64,000 bases of DNA from Bacteroidales bacterium (GTDB lineage: Bacteria; Bacteroidota; Bacteroidia; Bacteroidales; P3), in assembly GCA_017522105.1 (NCBI GenBank), contig JAFXAA010000003.1, forward strand, positions 1 through 64,000. Reading direction: 5' to 3'. Position numbers and translations under genes: made by a program. A model generated the notes under the pieces. It was not told the DNA's origin. It was given only the letters and a program-made list of their open reading frames with translations, and did no database searches. This document shows, piece after piece, positions 57,488 through 63,555 of the stretch (position 1 is the first letter of the stretch; each line of letters starts with the position of its first letter).

Positions 57488-58267
57488 ATGAAGAATGTAG
57501 CAGTGATACTGGCGGGAGGTATCGGTAGCCGCATGTACAATGAAGCAGTTCGCTCCACAATGTCGCGTTCTGCTTTATTGCCCAAGCAGTTCCTCGAAGT
57601 GGGTGGACGTGCTGTGGTGGAGTATTCCATCGATGCCTTCGACAGCCACCAGTCCATCGACGAGGTGGCCGTGGTGGTGCATCCCGAGTGGAGGCGCCGC
57701 ATGGAAGAGATTGCGGAGGCGCGCAAGTGGCGCAAGCTGGGGAAGATAGTGGACGGCGGCAGCGAGCGCTACATGTCGAGCCTCAATGCCGTGATGGCGT
57801 ATATAGACTATCCCGACGACACCAACCTGCTGCTGCACGATGCTGCGAGGCCCTGTGTGTCTGGGGCGTTGATAGGCCGTGTGGCCGAGGCCTTGAAACA
57901 CAACGAAGCCGTGGGCGTTGCTGTGCCGAGCACGGACACCATGTGGGAGGTGCATCCCGACATGAGTGGAGAGTTTGGTGCCGGAAGCGCAGAATTCGAG
58001 ATACCGCGCCTGGTGGCGCGCATACCCGAGCGGAGGCTCATGTGGCGAGCGCAGACGCCGCAGGCTTTCCGTCTGCCGCTGATCCGCGATGCCTACCAGC
58101 GAGCCCTGCAAGACCCTCAGTTCAGGGCCACCGACGACTGCGGAGTGGTGCGCAGGTACCTGCCTGGGGTGAAAATAGCCGTCGTCGAAGGTGAAGAGAG
58201 AAATATGAAACTGACAAACGCGGACGATATGTCCTTGGTGCAAAAATATATCAACAGCAATGGATAA
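57488..58267 (+). CDS. IspD/TarI-like cytidylyltransferase of the phosphonate operon
   Basis: The 259-residue protein is an IspD-like nucleotidyltransferase: [11 protein letters not shown] (6-16), LLPKQF near 35, [10 protein letters not shown] near 115, and AQTPQAFR near 188. A 12-residue insertion (about 18-33) separates the glycine loop from the PKQF motif. IspD makes CDP-methylerythritol, and TarI makes CDP-ribitol. In this operon, a CMP-phosphonate synthase that activates a 2-carbon phosphonate is the better guess, by analogy with PntC-like enzymes. Whether this gene instead serves isoprenoid synthesis is open, since ispE is 42 kb away. It overlaps the next gene by 8 bases. Confidence 0.8.
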
Positions 58268-59570
58268 GAAGACAGTATACGTCGGCATGAGTGCCGACAT
58301 GATCCATCCGGGTCATCTGAACATAATACACGAAGCCGTGAAGCTTGGCAGCGTCACCGTTGGCGTGCTCACCGATGCGGCAATAGCGAGCTACAAGCGT
58401 CTGCCGTACCTCACCTACGAGCAGCGCGCCGAGATAGTGAGCAACATAAAGGGTGTTGACAGGGTGGTGCCGCAGACCACGCTGGACTATGTGCCCAACC
58501 TGCGAGAGCTGAAGCCGGACTATGTGGTGCATGGCGACGACTGGAAGGAGGGGGTGCAGCAGAAGACCCGCCAGCGCATCATAGAGTGCATGGCTGAGTG
58601 GGGTGGCAAGGTGATAGACATTCCCTACACGCAGGGTATCAGCAGTACGGCCATGAACCAGCGGCTGAAAGAGATAGGCACCACGCCGGAGATACGCATG
58701 AAGAGGCTGCGCCGTCTCATTGGCGCCAAGAAGATAGTGCGCATACTGGAGAGCCACAGCGGTCTGACGGGCCTTATAATAGAAAACACGTCGGTTGAGG
58801 TGAACGGCAAGAAGGAAGAGTTCGACGGCATGTGGGCCAGCAGTCTCACCGACAGTACCAGCAAAGGAAAGCCGGATATCGAGGCCGTGGACATCACCAC
58901 GCGCCTGCACGACCTCAACGATGCGCTGGAGGTGACCACCAAGCCTGTTATCTTCGACGGAGACACCGGCGGCAAGGTGGAGCATTTCGTCTTCACTGTG
59001 CGCACCCTGGAGCGCCTCGGAATATCGGCGGTTATCATAGAGGACAAGGTAGGCCTGAAGCAGAACTCGCTCTTCGGCACCGATGCCGTGCAGACGCAGG
59101 ACACCATAGAAGGGTTCTGCGCCAAGATACGCGCCGGCAAGAACGCGCAGATAACCGACGACTTCATGGTTATTGCCCGCATAGAGAGCCTCATCGCCGG
59201 CAAGCCGGTGGAGGACGCCCTGGAGCGTGCCTTCGCTTATGTGGCCGCCGGTGCCGACGGCATCATGATACACAGCAAGAACAAAGACGGCATGGACATC
59301 AAGGAGTTCTGTCAGCGCTTCCGCGAGAAAGACGTGGAGACGCCCATCGTGGCGGTGCCCACCACCTACAACCAGTACACCGAGGACGAGTTGGCCTCGT
59401 GGGGCATCAATGTGGTCATCTATGCCAACCACATGCTGCGTGCTGCCTATCCCGCCATGGTGAACTGCGCCAAGAGCATACTGATGCACCAGCGCAGCCT
59501 TGAGGCCAGTGAGGAATACTGCATGCCCATAAAGGAAATACTCACCCTTATACCAGGTACAAAGAAATGA
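58260..59570 (+). CDS. Cytidylyltransferase-phosphoenolpyruvate mutase fusion
   Basis: A 436-residue two-domain protein. Residues 1-135 are a glycerol-3-phosphate-cytidylyltransferase-like domain with HxGH at 16-19 (HPGH) and [13 protein letters not shown] near 122-134. Residues about 145-436 are a PEP phosphomutase with the signature [10 protein letters not shown] starting at 261, the isocitrate-lyase-fold active site. PEP mutase makes phosphonopyruvate from PEP, the entry step of phosphonate synthesis. The fused domain probably activates a phosphonate or phospho-alcohol with CTP. Fusions of PepM to nucleotidyltransferases are known in glycan-tailoring clusters. It is the second gene of a five-gene operon. 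Confidence 0.9.
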
Positions 59571-60688
59571 TACGTCCAGAGTTCTTCATGGAACGGCTGA
59601 AGGCCGTGGGGGTGGAGTTCTTCGCCGGGGTGCCGGACTCGCTGCTGAAAAACATTTGTGCCTATATGACGGACAACCTTGATGAAAGCCATCATGTCAT
59701 CGCCGCCAACGAAGGCGGGGCTGTCGGTCTGGCGGCAGGCTACCACCTTGCCACAGGCAAGCCTGGCTGTGTGTATATGCAGAACAGCGGAGAGGGCAAT
59801 GCCGTCAACCCGTTGGCCTCGTTGATGGACAAGGACGTGTATGGCATGCCATTGCTGCTGATTATAGGGTGGCGAGGGCGCCCGGGTGTGCACGACGAGC
59901 CGCAGCATGTGAAGCAAGGCAAGATAACCACGGGACTGCTCAACACCCTCGGCATCAACTATGATGTCCTTGCCAAAGAAGAGTCTGTGGCAGAACGTCA
60001 GATAGAGAATGCTGCCAAGGCGCTGCGCAACAACGAGGTCTATGCCTTGGTGGTGGAGAAGGACACCTTCGACAGCTATTCGCTGAAGAACACGCGGCCG
60101 GAGCGTTGTGTGATGAGCCGCGAGGAGGCCATACGCATTGTAGCGGCGAGTATGCCGGCTGATGCCGTTGTTGTCGGCACGACAGGCATGATAAGCCGTG
60201 AACTGTTTGAATACCGTACCGCCATGAGTCAGGGTCATGAGCGTGACTTCTTGACTGTGGGTTCCATGGGACATGCGTCGATGATAGCCCTCGGCATTGC
60301 CATGCAGCAGCCAGGCCGCAAGGTCTATTGCTTTGACGGCGACGGTGCGGCCATCATGCACATGGGCAATATGGCAATCGTCGGCAGCAAGGCCCCGCGC
60401 AACTTTGTGCACGTAGTGTTCAACAATGGCGCACATGATTCGGTGGGTGGACAGCCAACAGTGGGTCATTATATTGACATGGTCGGCATAGCCAAAGCCA
60501 TGCACTATGCGCATGTCTCAACGGTGAGCAATCCCGAAGAGTTGCGTAAATGTCTTGACGTCATGCCCTCCGACGGCCCGGTGATGCTTGAAGTGCGCGT
60601 GAAGAGGGGCAACCGAAAAGACCTCGGCAGACCTACAACCACCCCGGAACAGAACAAGGAAGCCCTCATGACGTTCCTTAAGAAATGA
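59567..60688 (+). CDS. Phosphonopyruvate decarboxylase
   Basis: This thiamine-diphosphate enzyme converts phosphonopyruvate to phosphonoacetaldehyde, pulling the unfavourable mutase step forward. The 373-residue protein opens with [17 protein letters not shown] and [16 protein letters not shown], carries [11 protein letters not shown], and has the TPP motif [13 protein letters not shown] followed by [12 protein letters not shown]. These match the phosphonopyruvate/sulfopyruvate decarboxylase family. The neighbouring PEP mutase makes phosphonopyruvate the clear substrate. Its start overlaps the upstream stop by four bases. Confidence 0.93.
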
Positions 60689-60692
60689 TGCC

Positions 60693-61787
60693 ATGCAGAA
60701 GATATTGAACGGATATTGTAGCATCGAGGCAGCTTTGCGCGAGGTCGGTGCCAAGAAGTTCATGCTGGTATGTGATTCTTCGTATGCTTTCTTGCCGATA
60801 AAAGACCTGCTTAACCCCGCTGTCGTCTTTGACCAGTTCACGCCAAACCCGCTGTATGAAGATGTATGCAAAGGTGTCGGCATGTTTAACGCCAACGGCT
60901 GCGATGCCCTTGTCGCTGTCGGGGGCGGCTCGACAATCGACGTGGCGAAGTGCATAAAGCTTTACTGCAGGATGGACCCTTCGCGCAACTATCTTGAGCA
61001 GGAATGCTTTGATAGCGGCATACCGCTGATAGCGGTGCCCACCACGGCTGGTACAGGCAGCGAGAGCACGCACTATGCCGTCATTTACTATGAGGGCAAG
61101 AAGCAGAGCGTGGCCCATGCAAGCATTGTCCCCGACTATGCTGTCCTGGAGCCTATGCTGCTCAAGACCTTGCCACTTTACCAGAAGAAGTGCACAATGC
61201 TCGATGCTCTCTGTCAGGGCATAGAATCGCTGTGGAGTGTCAACTCGACAGAAGAGAGTATGCTGTACGGCAAGATTGCCATACAGGGAATAATGGATTA
61301 TTGGCACGAATACATAGAGCAAAACACCGACGAGGCGGCCCGTGGCATCATGTCGGCGGCCAACTATGCCGGGCGTGCCATCAACATTACGCAGACAACG
61401 GCGCCACATGCCATGAGCTACAAGCTCACGTCTATATATGGGTTGCCGCACGGCCATGCCGTGGCTCTTTGCTTGCCCGAGGTGTGGATGTATATGCTTG
61501 AGCACCCTGACCAGTGCATAGATCCGCGTGGTCGCGAGCATCTGGAGTTCGTCTTTGAGTGGTTGGGACGGTTGATGAATTGCGACTCGGCCTACAAAGG
61601 CCTTATGATGTTCCGTGCCATAATGTTCTCTCTCGACATGCCGCTGCCAAAATGCCACGACCGTGCCGCCGAGCTTGAAGTGCTGACATCATCCGTCAAT
61701 CCGGTACGGCTGAAGAACAATCCCGTGGCGCTGTCCGAAGACACATTGCGTTACCTCTATAACAGAATACTTCCATGCGAGAATTGA
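60693..61787 (+). CDS. Iron-type alcohol dehydrogenase, likely phosphonoacetaldehyde reductase
   Basis: The 364-residue protein has the group III alcohol dehydrogenase pattern: GGGSTIDVAKCIKLY near 72-86, VPTTAGTGSE near 114-123, and the metal ligands in TAPHAMSY and LPHGHAVALCLPEVW. In operons with PEP mutase and phosphonopyruvate decarboxylase, such enzymes reduce phosphonoacetaldehyde to 2-hydroxyethylphosphonate. There is no aminotransferase in the cluster, which argues against 2-aminoethylphosphonate as the product. It overlaps licD by 13 bases. Confidence 0.88.
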   Translation: MQKILNGYCSIEAALREVGAKKFMLVCDSSYAFLPIKDLLNPAVVFDQFTPNPLYEDVCKGVGMFNANGCDALVAVGGGSTIDVAKCIKLYCRMDPSRNYLEQECFDSGIPLIAVPTTAGTGSESTHYAVIYYEGKKQSVAHASIVPDYAVLEPMLLKTLPLYQKKCTMLDALCQGIESLWSVNSTEESMLYGKIAIQGIMDYWHEYIEQNTDEAARGIMSAANYAGRAINITQTTAPHAMSYKLTSIYGLPHGHAVALCLPEVWMYMLEHPDQCIDPRGREHLEFVFEWLGRLMNCDSAYKGLMMFRAIMFSLDMPLPKCHDRAAELEVLTSSVNPVRLKNNPVALSEDTLRYLYNRILPCEN

Positions 61788-62467
61788 TAGTGAAACTTGC
61801 CACATTCCTTGGCTTGTACAGCTTCCTGATGAAGATAGACAACCGGCGCGAGACCCGGAAGCAGAACCGTGCCTTTATGAAATATGGGCTCGAAGCCCTG
61901 CGCGAGGCGGTTGCGGCCACCGATGAGTGCGGTGGCAAGCTCTTCCTCGCCTTCGGCTCGTTGTTGGGAGCCTACCGTGAAAAGGGTTTCATACCGTTTG
62001 ACTATGACCTCGACACAGGCCTTATGGCCGACGAACGCACCGACGAACTCGTCGCTGCCATGCGCCGCCATGGCTTCACCCTCCTGCGGCAGTACTATAT
62101 CAAGACCACAGGCCGCATCTGCGAGGACAAGTACGACTACAAGGGAGTGCATATCGATGTCCATTATTTCTATCACAATGCCGACGGCGACATCTATTGC
62201 GACCTCTGTCTGCCACACGAAAGCAAGCCGTGGCGCGAGGCCAATGCCACCGACGGTTTCCCCACCATTATCCGCACTGTGCCCGACAGCACTTTTTCCA
62301 AGCAGGACTTCCTTGGATTAAAGGTGTATATGCCTGACCGCACAGAAGACTGGCTCCGGACCCTCTATGGCGAACATTTCATGATTCCAGACCCCAAGTG
62401 GACGATGGGAGACCATAAAAAACGCTCCCAGACCAACGGAGAGCGTATGTATCGGCGCCAGCTCTAA
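61775..62467 (+). CDS. LicD family phospho-/phosphonotransferase
   Basis: LicD enzymes move phosphocholine-like groups from a CDP/CMP-activated donor onto glycans. The 230-residue protein has the core AFGSLLGAYREKGFIPFDYDLD (about 66-87, metal-binding Asp residues included), then the HIDVHYFYH block and a C-terminal PDRTEDWLRTLYGEHFMIPDP typical of the family. As the last gene of the operon it probably attaches the CMP-phosphonate product to a surface polysaccharide or lipid-linked sugar. Its stop overlaps the converging glycosyltransferase stop by four bases. Confidence 0.9.
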   Translation: MRELIVKLATFLGLYSFLMKIDNRRETRKQNRAFMKYGLEALREAVAATDECGGKLFLAFGSLLGAYREKGFIPFDYDLDTGLMADERTDELVAAMRRHGFTLLRQYYIKTTGRICEDKYDYKGVHIDVHYFYHNADGDIYCDLCLPHESKPWREANATDGFPTIIRTVPDSTFSKQDFLGLKVYMPDRTEDWLRTLYGEHFMIPDPKWTMGDHKKRSQTNGERMYRRQL

Positions 62468-63555
62468 GGTAATACGGCCCGGAACTTGTCCACCATGCGG
62501 TCGGCCGAGTAGTTCTCAACGAACATCTGGCGGCTGTATGCGTTGAAGCGGGGGTGTGGCGTGGAGCAGAAGCCGTTGATGGCCCCCACGAATTCATCGG
62601 CCGTCAGGCAGCAGGCCCCCGCTTTGGCATAGTCCACTTCGTAGCCGCTCCAGGCCTCCGGCGTGCCTATGATGTTTTTGCCGTACATCATGCTCTCGCA
62701 TGTCTTCACCTTCATGCCGCTGCCTTTGAAGATGGGCAGCACCATCAGGTCGGCCTCTTCGAAGACGGGAGCCAGGTCGGGGACATTACTCTGCACCTCA
62801 ATGTCGCTGCGCAGCCACTCGGCATCCTTCAGCCTCTCCATACCTTTGCCCACCACCAGCATGCGTATGTCAACCCTTGGCAGTACGTTCTTCACGAACC
62901 ATTCAATGCCCTCCACATTGGCGGGGAAGTATGCGCCGAGGAAGACGCAAAGCGGCCGTTTGGCTACGTAGGCTGTTGGGTAGGTGTCGCGCTGGTAGGT
63001 GTCTACGAAGGCTATGGGAATCAGCTGGTCGGCATGTCTGCCGTAGCGGCGGAAGAACTCATCGTCGTCGCGTCTGCTGAGTGCTATGGTGCGGTCGGCA
63101 TAGCGGCAGCTCCAGCGGTCGTTGCGGTCGGCGCAAGGCACCACAAGCCACCGCATCGGGTTGAGCCTGTTGGAGTATTTGGCTGCGAAATAGACCGCTT
63201 CCACGTTGTGGAAGAAGCAGATTACGCGTCCTTTATAGCCACTTTCCTTCAGCTTCTTGGCCACGATGCCAAACACCGAGCGGTCCACAAAGACCACATC
63301 GTATACCGCGGCCTTCTCCACTATGGCTTTCACCCGCTGCGGTGTCAGGCCGAAGTAGTAGCCAAGCGGCATGTACATCACCCCTTGCAGGTACTCCCAC
63401 GCCGTGCGGCGGTGTGCCTCGTCGTGGATGAAGTAGGTGTCCACGTTTTCTTCGCCGGCTATGCGGCACAGCACCGTTCGGTTCAGCTCGCTGGCTTTCT
63501 CACCGCCTTCGGGCACCCCGCGGGTCTTCTTGTATCTTATGACCAGTATCCTCAT
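62464..63555 (-). CDS. GT4/GT1-like glycosyltransferase
   Basis: The 363-residue protein is a GT-B fold glycosyltransferase: the N-terminal half has HDEAHRRTAWEYLQG and FFHNVEAVYFAAKYSN, and the C-terminal half has VVGKGMERLKDAEW and the donor-site block FEEADLMVLPIFKGSGMKVKTCE. Its sugar donor and acceptor are not predictable. It converges with the phosphonate operon, and could build the glycan that LicD decorates. It overlaps the YfhO-like gene start by four bases (ATGA). Confidence 0.9.
   Translation of the reverse strand: MRILVIRYKKTRGVPEGGEKASELNRTVLCRIAGEENVDTYFIHDEAHRRTAWEYLQGVMYMPLGYYFGLTPQRVKAIVEKAAVYDVVFVDRSVFGIVAKKLKESGYKGRVICFFHNVEAVYFAAKYSNRLNPMRWLVVPCADRNDRWSCRYADRTIALSRRDDDEFFRRYGRHADQLIPIAFVDTYQRDTYPTAYVAKRPLCVFLGAYFPANVEGIEWFVKNVLPRVDIRMLVVGKGMERLKDAEWLRSDIEVQSNVPDLAPVFEEADLMVLPIFKGSGMKVKTCESMMYGKNIIGTPEAWSGYEVDYAKAGACCLTADEFVGAINGFCSTPHPRFNAYSRQMFVENYSADRMVDKFRAVLP

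Follow-up and report, generated by a model that had tools for sequence, protein, structure and literature searches.

A four-gene cassette downstream of ispD in a Bacteroidales genome is predicted to make and use CMP-2-hydroxyethylphosphonate

The 64,000-nt stretch analysed here (the window; contig JAFXAA010000003.1 of assembly GCA_017522105.1, a Bacteroidales bacterium whose 2.28 Mb genome is 92% complete) carries, at positions 57488-62467, five tightly packed open reading frames (ORFs) on the plus strand, encoding proteins of 259, 436, 373, 364 and 230 AA. We propose, with a probability of roughly 0.73, that the last four form a cassette downstream of ispD that makes and uses 2-hydroxyethylphosphonate activated with cytidine monophosphate (CMP-HEP), LicD transferring the head group to a surface glycan or glycolipid. 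In the proposed route, the phosphoenolpyruvate (PEP) mutase domain would convert PEP to phosphonopyruvate, from which the decarboxylase would form phosphonoacetaldehyde; the Fe-type dehydrogenase would reduce this to HEP, the cytidylyltransferase (CyTase) domain fused to the mutase would couple HEP with CMP, and LicD would take the phosphonate head group off CMP-HEP and attach it to a hydroxyl of a glycan or glycolipid at the cell surface. The sequence itself shows which families the proteins belong to and the state of their motifs, and from these we infer HEP, CMP-HEP and the acceptor, of which HEP and CMP-HEP are strongly supported as the predicted products. The features of the locus are as follows.

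57488..58267, plus strand: ispD, probably the sole cytidylyltransferase of the methylerythritol phosphate (MEP) pathway in the genome and probably no phosphonate enzyme (Pfam, genome copy number)
58260..58679, plus strand: N-terminal CyTase domain (PF01467), predicted HEP cytidylyltransferase (match to 5x3d, E 1.4e-59, 63% identity)
58305..58316, plus strand: HxGH catalytic motif, HPGH, residues 16-19, intact (alignment)
58635..58649, plus strand: GISST motif, residues 126-130, intact (alignment)
58680..59570, plus strand: PEP mutase domain, same protein as the CyTase (PF13714, TIGR02320)
59040..59069, plus strand: ten residues (261-270) carrying the PEP mutase signature EDKxxxxxNS, as that signature is given in the available text of PMC6697681
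59567..60688, plus strand: phosphonopyruvate decarboxylase of the thiamine pyrophosphate (TPP) type (TIGR03297)
60693..61787, plus strand: Fe-type alcohol dehydrogenase, predicted phosphonoacetaldehyde reductase (D171, Q175, T235, H239, Y243 and H253 match the BkTauF site)
61775..62467, plus strand: short LicD-family transferase, predicted to use CMP-HEP as donor of the head group for a glycan or glycolipid (PF04991)

All five proteins passed the curated Pfam cut-offs (IspD; CTP_transf_like and PEP_mutase; TPP_enzyme N and C; Fe-ADH; LicD). Along the operon the genes overlap by 8, 4 and 13 bp with a single 4-bp gap (60688/60693), and no repeats of note were seen within it. The five overlapping or near-overlapping plus-strand genes described in a first-pass annotation of this DNA were therefore borne out by the ORF list, Pfam and NCBIfam. 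That annotation had also proposed a search for conserved co-occurrence in related genomes, where the order fusion-decarboxylase-dehydrogenase, often followed by LicD, was found repeatedly, suggesting that the layout is not due to chance.

In NCBIfam, the mutase and the decarboxylase passed their equivalog cut-offs (TIGR02320, 415.6 versus 319.55 bits; TIGR03297, 493.3 versus 312.5 bits, respectively). The best solved match of the CyTase domain, 5x3d, is labelled only as PEP phosphomutase in the PDB, and we take it to be the CyTase of Fom1, the maker of CMP-HEP. The fusion displays the Fom1-type traits, namely an N-terminal PF01467 domain on a PEP mutase, HxGH together with ISS[TS], and EDKxxxxxNS. 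The N-terminal domain of Fom1 produces CMP-HEP according to the available text of PMC6697681, and catalysis in this superfamily is stated in PMC6060094 to depend critically on both HxGH histidines. With HPGH and GISST both intact, it is a strongly supported prediction that the fused CyTase makes CMP-HEP from CTP and HEP. Five positions of the fusion protein (11, 12, 44, 46 and 93) read S, A, S, K and D in at least 62 of the 62-63 readable CyTases linked to a dehydrogenase and in 5x3d, versus G, T, K, S and T in four intact CyTases linked to the aminotransferase AepZ, a split that may reflect kinship because those four share one family. Position 20 runs the opposite way, 5x3d carrying the AepZ-type residue.

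Sulfoacetaldehyde is the sulfonate counterpart of phosphonoacetaldehyde, and the best PDB match of the dehydrogenase, although distant, is 6jko, the sulfoacetaldehyde reductase BkTauF. The zinc ligands of BkTauF are Asp192, Gln196, His261 and His275, and substitution of Thr257 or Phe265 by Ala nearly abolishes activity, as stated in the available portion of PMC6616044. At the equivalent site, the window enzyme shares the ligands (Asp171, Gln175, His239 and His253) together with the Thr and aromatic substrate residues (Thr235 and Tyr243), and Tyr in place of Phe265 is also reported there for a number of BkTauF homologues (PMC6616044). The two enzymes differ in that BkTauF acts on a sulfonate and that its Phe252 is Ile in the window enzyme. 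The pattern D-[Q/H]-T-H-Y-H was kept in all 73 dehydrogenases tested (67 distinct; above 150 bits and 250 AA, L087 being left out as too short or weak), with Gln in the second place in 64 and His in nine. On the basis of this active site, the enzyme is predicted to reduce phosphonoacetaldehyde to HEP.

AepZ, the aminotransferase of the better-known aminoethylphosphonate (AEP) route, was found nowhere above cut-off in the 92% complete genome itself (best match 37.9 versus 360.8 bits). A search of 190 genomes of the same family provided the neighbourhoods of 40 fused loci, comprising 27 of the window type (fusion, decarboxylase, dehydrogenase and usually LicD), eight with AepZ instead of the dehydrogenase, four triple fusions and one other. 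AepZ exceeded its cut-off in nine of these genomes, seven holding the eight AepZ loci and two (G143 and G189) having no strong fused mutase; at fused-mutase loci of the family it occurred only in the eight that lack the dehydrogenase, which carry a separate LicC-type nucleotidyltransferase and a fused CyTase reading HPGL.

The comparison was widened with one genome per species (of 571 relatives, the 80 most similar to the window protein were kept, some of them probably members of the window's own family) and with eight loci from a phylum sample of 395 genomes. Two of the resulting 128 loci had no strong mutase match (L160 and L161); the other 126 gave 118 distinct loci, or 117 after L038 was dropped for an N at the motif. 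Neighbours were counted within 6.5 kb of the mutase, as far as the available sequence extended, at more than 100 bits for the dehydrogenase and AepZ and more than 60 bits for LicC. The CyTase was intact in 70 of the 117 distinct loci, which span many phyla, had lost the second His of HxGH in 43 and was part of a triple fusion in four. A dehydrogenase adjoined 63 of the intact loci, AepZ four and neither gene three, and a LicC- or DUF6564-type nucleotidyltransferase was found near none of the 70 (types sought: LicC, DUF6564 and IspD). The 43 lost-His loci gave no dehydrogenase, AepZ in 30 and LicC in 32. No locus of the 117 combined dehydrogenase and AepZ. The first-pass annotation had argued from the absence of an aminotransferase to HEP, and this route is supported by the AepZ search, the TauF-like site and the match to 5x3d; a consistent association of an aminotransferase in relatives, which it had named as pointing to AEP, was looked for, and AepZ lay within 6.5 kb of none of the 67 distinct dehydrogenase loci.

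Most lost-His loci (40 of 43) carry another nucleotidyltransferase: LicC in 32, a DUF6564-type enzyme in seven and a cytidylyltransferase-AepZ fusion in one (L152). We lean, by a small degree, towards a general rule in which an intact fused CyTase would be the activating enzyme, nearly always for HEP from a TauF-like dehydrogenase, so that the HEP route would be a second widespread surface phosphonate system, present in several phyla and on viral contigs, whereas in AEP loci of the aepXYZ kind, including that of Bacteroides fragilis, the domain would be a conserved pseudoenzyme whose job has been taken by a LicC/PntC-type, DUF6564-type or other cytidylyltransferase.

Several observations weigh against the HEP cassette or the rule drawn from it. 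The dehydrogenase scored 145.3 bits against its top NCBIfam match, the phosphonate Fe-ADH model TIGR03405, far under the cut-off of 423.7, and LicD passed PF04991 with a weak 32 bits (gathering threshold 22.6). LicD also lies near 19 of the 43 lost-His loci and is thus not HEP-specific. Four of the 70 intact CyTases adjoin AepZ with no LicC within 6.5 kb (L159 has one 60-bit LicC match further off), so that intact does not always mean HEP, and L066 has mutase and decarboxylase with no dehydrogenase within 6.5 kb, although 8.7 kb of uncut sequence was available; the other two intact loci with neither gene (L070 and L153) have under 2 kb of downstream sequence. Three lost-His loci (L048, L100 and L107) showed no substitute enzyme. 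On the mutase tree the labels need four to five changes, leaving four independent pairs, about three of them in the same direction (p 0.25). With so few independent pairs, Fisher values for the association overstate the evidence; about four evolutionary switches underlie the association, whose statistical weight is limited.

The missed TIGR03405 cut-off, together with the promiscuity often seen in Fe-type dehydrogenases, would fit a dehydrogenase with some other substrate, AEP or a different phosphonate being made by an unlinked enzyme. This is improbable, given that AepZ is above cut-off nowhere in the genome, that dehydrogenase and AepZ never occur together in the 117 loci, and that the active site is that of a sulfoacetaldehyde reductase.

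Assignment of the fused CyTase to the HEP pathway is accompanied by strong constraint on the protein. In the seven closest pairs, the nonsynonymous divergence of CyTase and mutase was 0.017-0.048 versus 0.098-0.282 for the neighbouring genes (one LicD was left out as not the same gene), and the fusion protein was 97% identical versus about 70% for its neighbours. Gene conversion or recent transfer was considered as the cause of this conservation and found unsupported, the proportion of synonymous differences being 0.55-0.97 in every gene (nine pairs); with synonymous sites heavily diverged in all genes, purifying selection on the protein explains the identity of the fusion. The median ratio of CyTase to mutase divergence was 1.04 in intact, 1.28 in lost-His and 1.94 in triple-fusion proteins. 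The lost-His CyTase therefore evolves only slightly faster than the mutase, and the domain is thus kept even where it is predicted to be inactive.

On the CyTase tree, the lost-His group falls on one side of a branch (support of 99 in the Shimodaira-Hasegawa-like approximate likelihood ratio test, from few columns), while the mutase tree needs four changes; a single lost-His clade was not rejected by the approximately unbiased test (p 0.118). Compared with the intact L083, the lost-His loci L103 and L107 have mutases 90% identical and CyTases 52-53% identical (52% for L103), pointing to either a domain shuffle or fast change after the loss of catalysis.

The first-pass annotation had counted two cytidylyltransferase domains in the operon. 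The fused CyTase belongs to the pathway, but the first gene is most likely the single MEP-pathway IspD of the genome, at whose locus the cassette sits. Its score against the IspD equivalog TIGR00453 (164.4 bits) is under the cut-off of 181.3, so the name rests on PF01128, which it passed, and on its being single-copy in a genome that bears IspF; the second-best IspD match in the genome reaches 19.8 bits. IspD and IspF, the two MEP genes looked for, were compared across 39 genomes including this one, 38 carrying the fusion and one a fusion remnant. IspF was present in 38 of them, and full IspD copies numbered one in 33 genomes, two in three and none in two, the remaining genome having a copy cut by a contig end.

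There is a slim chance that the first gene is instead a second phosphonate cytidylyltransferase, the fused CyTase having another role. Its 8-bp overlap with the fusion gene, its missed TIGR00453 cut-off and the presence of IspD within 6.5 kb of the fusion in 22 of the 27 window-type loci would agree with this. However, IspD is apart from the fusion in the other five (G120 and G040 have more than 8 kb upstream of the fusion without IspD; in G006, G013 and G153 the fusion is at a contig end and IspD is followed by 6.1-8.9 kb of other DNA), and it lies near only one (L084) of 45 intact loci from other collections. Exactly one full IspD was found in 26 of the 27 cassette genomes and a single contig-end-cut copy in the last, and the fused CyTase is under the strong constraint described above. 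IspD as a pathway member was rejected on these grounds, since it is the only IspD in an IspF-bearing genome and is non-adjacent in five of 27, and the gene is best read as the MEP enzyme. In congeners without a full fusion, the genes downstream of IspD are assorted (10 loci; 10 proteins from six loci were scanned): CTP_transf_like, asparagine-synthase-like, DUF362, NIF3, zinc ribbon, DAHP-synthase-like, SIS-CBS (twice), IgGFc-binding-like and acyltransferase proteins.

For the last step, all 16 chosen LicD orthologues match PF04991 and keep the core G[ST]LLGAYR...IPxDxDLD. The sole PDB match of LicD under E 0.1 is FKRP (E 8e-4), and its sole NCBIfam match, far under cut-off, is the diacylglycerol cholinephosphotransferase model, so that a glycolipid acceptor is possible. 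LicD lies near 37 of the 70 intact loci (20 of 25 in the same family; flanks are often short), and at three dehydrogenase loci (L036, L092 and L145) the next gene is CDP-glycerol glycerophosphotransferase-like, suggesting that the transferase is exchangeable. LicD would then move the CMP-activated phosphonate to a surface glycan or glycolipid. HEP, a rare phosphorus compound, is reportedly a component of actinobacterial phosphonoglycans, as Yu is said to have described in 2014. The kinship of the CyTase to 5x3d, taken here as that of the fosfomycin enzyme Fom1, would also fit a route in which HEP or CMP-HEP leads on to a small secreted, fosfomycin-like phosphonate and not to a surface group; this is very unlikely, since the last gene of the cassette is LicD, ten downstream genes sampled at ten other dehydrogenase loci comprised one LicD, two CDP-glycerol glycerophosphotransferase-like genes, four glycan or sugar-nucleotide genes (Polysacc_synt_2, polysaccharide deacetylase, epimerase and GT2) and three others (ATPase-nuclease, glucose/sorbosone dehydrogenase and GFO/IDH/MocA oxidoreductase) of which none resembles a fosfomycin tailoring enzyme, and the radical SAM neighbour in the window passes the MtaB equivalog cut-off of NCBIfam.

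As a surface HEP pathway, the cassette can be set beside three known systems. Fom1 of Streptomyces wedmorensis, as described in the available text of PMC6697681, has the same fusion order, both motifs intact and a route through HEP; in the Bacteroidales locus the fusion is followed by decarboxylase, dehydrogenase and LicD, and no fosfomycin tailoring gene was seen adjoining. The aepX/aepY/aepZ loci for AEP, for example that of Bacteroides fragilis S82 (L122), share a homologous fused mutase, a decarboxylase and a surface phosphonate, but have AepZ for the dehydrogenase, a separate LicC/PntC-type nucleotidyltransferase and HPGL instead of HPGH. PntC likewise activates a phosphonate with CMP for the surface, but it is a PF12804 enzyme for AEP in the same source, whereas the only candidate found at the present locus besides IspD is the mutase-fused PF01467 domain. 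Fused nucleotidyltransferase domains are counted in the available text of PMC6697681 as evidence of phosphonate activation, intact and degenerate forms not being separated in it, and no mention of HxGH loss in fused PEP mutases was found there or in a literature search. Reading the two motifs would predict the activating enzyme and, largely, the phosphonate made, separating HEP- from AEP-type loci by sequence; it becomes plausible that uncultured Bacteroidales of the rumen and gut carry HEP on their surface, and the motif residues named can be tested.

Viral contigs were examined after the rule had been formed. From 29 contigs or loci, 28 had a strong mutase match, and removal of four duplicates and three unreadable loci (L194, L197 and L199) left 21 distinct ones. 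HxGH and SST/SSS were kept in all 21, with a dehydrogenase match in 19 and AepZ in none, though in L176 and L191 the G preceding ISST is replaced by D or N, so that the bacterial criterion would not class them as intact. The viral dehydrogenases are short and score 34-90 bits, under the 100-bit limit used above; a domain E-value of 1e-4 was the criterion for admitting them. At L193, a LicC match of 48 bits was seen. Across L173-L200, the CyTase-mutase looks intact and mostly occurs alongside a decarboxylase in two parts and a dehydrogenase of reduced length. The viral nature of the contigs is weakly checked, with one dUTPase, two methyltransferase matches and seven proteins without a match among ten. 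A CMP-HEP pathway in viruses is predicted from these genes. Judged by titles and the openings of abstracts, a literature search gave nothing to the point on viral phosphonate synthesis, which is absent from the available parts of PMC6375957 and PMC8931226, and searches of plasmid and phage records returned matches under 60% identity.

Beyond the cassette, a glycosyltransferase gene at 62464-63555 of the window, minus strand, is convergent with LicD and is found near LicD in several relatives. In G084 (L162:5498-14001), ispD is followed by a fusion-gene remnant, by CTP_transf_3, HMGL-like, PfkB and GT52 genes and then by the same glycosyltransferase as in the window; the cassette seems to have been replaced there, and the glycosyltransferase, kept although the cassette has gone, is probably outside the cassette.

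Other arrangements were observed among the remaining loci. In the four triple fusions, a LicC-type domain precedes the CyTase-mutase, a dehydrogenase is present and the second motif is lost. Seven lost-His loci (L098, L101, L102, L104, L105, L106 and L125), which have neither AepZ nor dehydrogenase, share a trio of metallophosphoesterase, extended short-chain dehydrogenase/reductase and DUF6564 nucleotidyltransferase, the last of which was found by tblastn at no locus beyond these seven; the trio is perhaps a third phosphonate route. At L152:8433-9812, a cytidylyltransferase domain and an AepZ-like aminotransferase form a single protein, and a CDP-alcohol phosphatidyltransferase comes next. 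At L041:11388-14147, an AEP locus, a LicC-type domain shares one protein with an LPG-synthase-like membrane domain, next to a CDP-alcohol phosphatidyltransferase, and this fusion is predicted to act in phosphonolipid synthesis.

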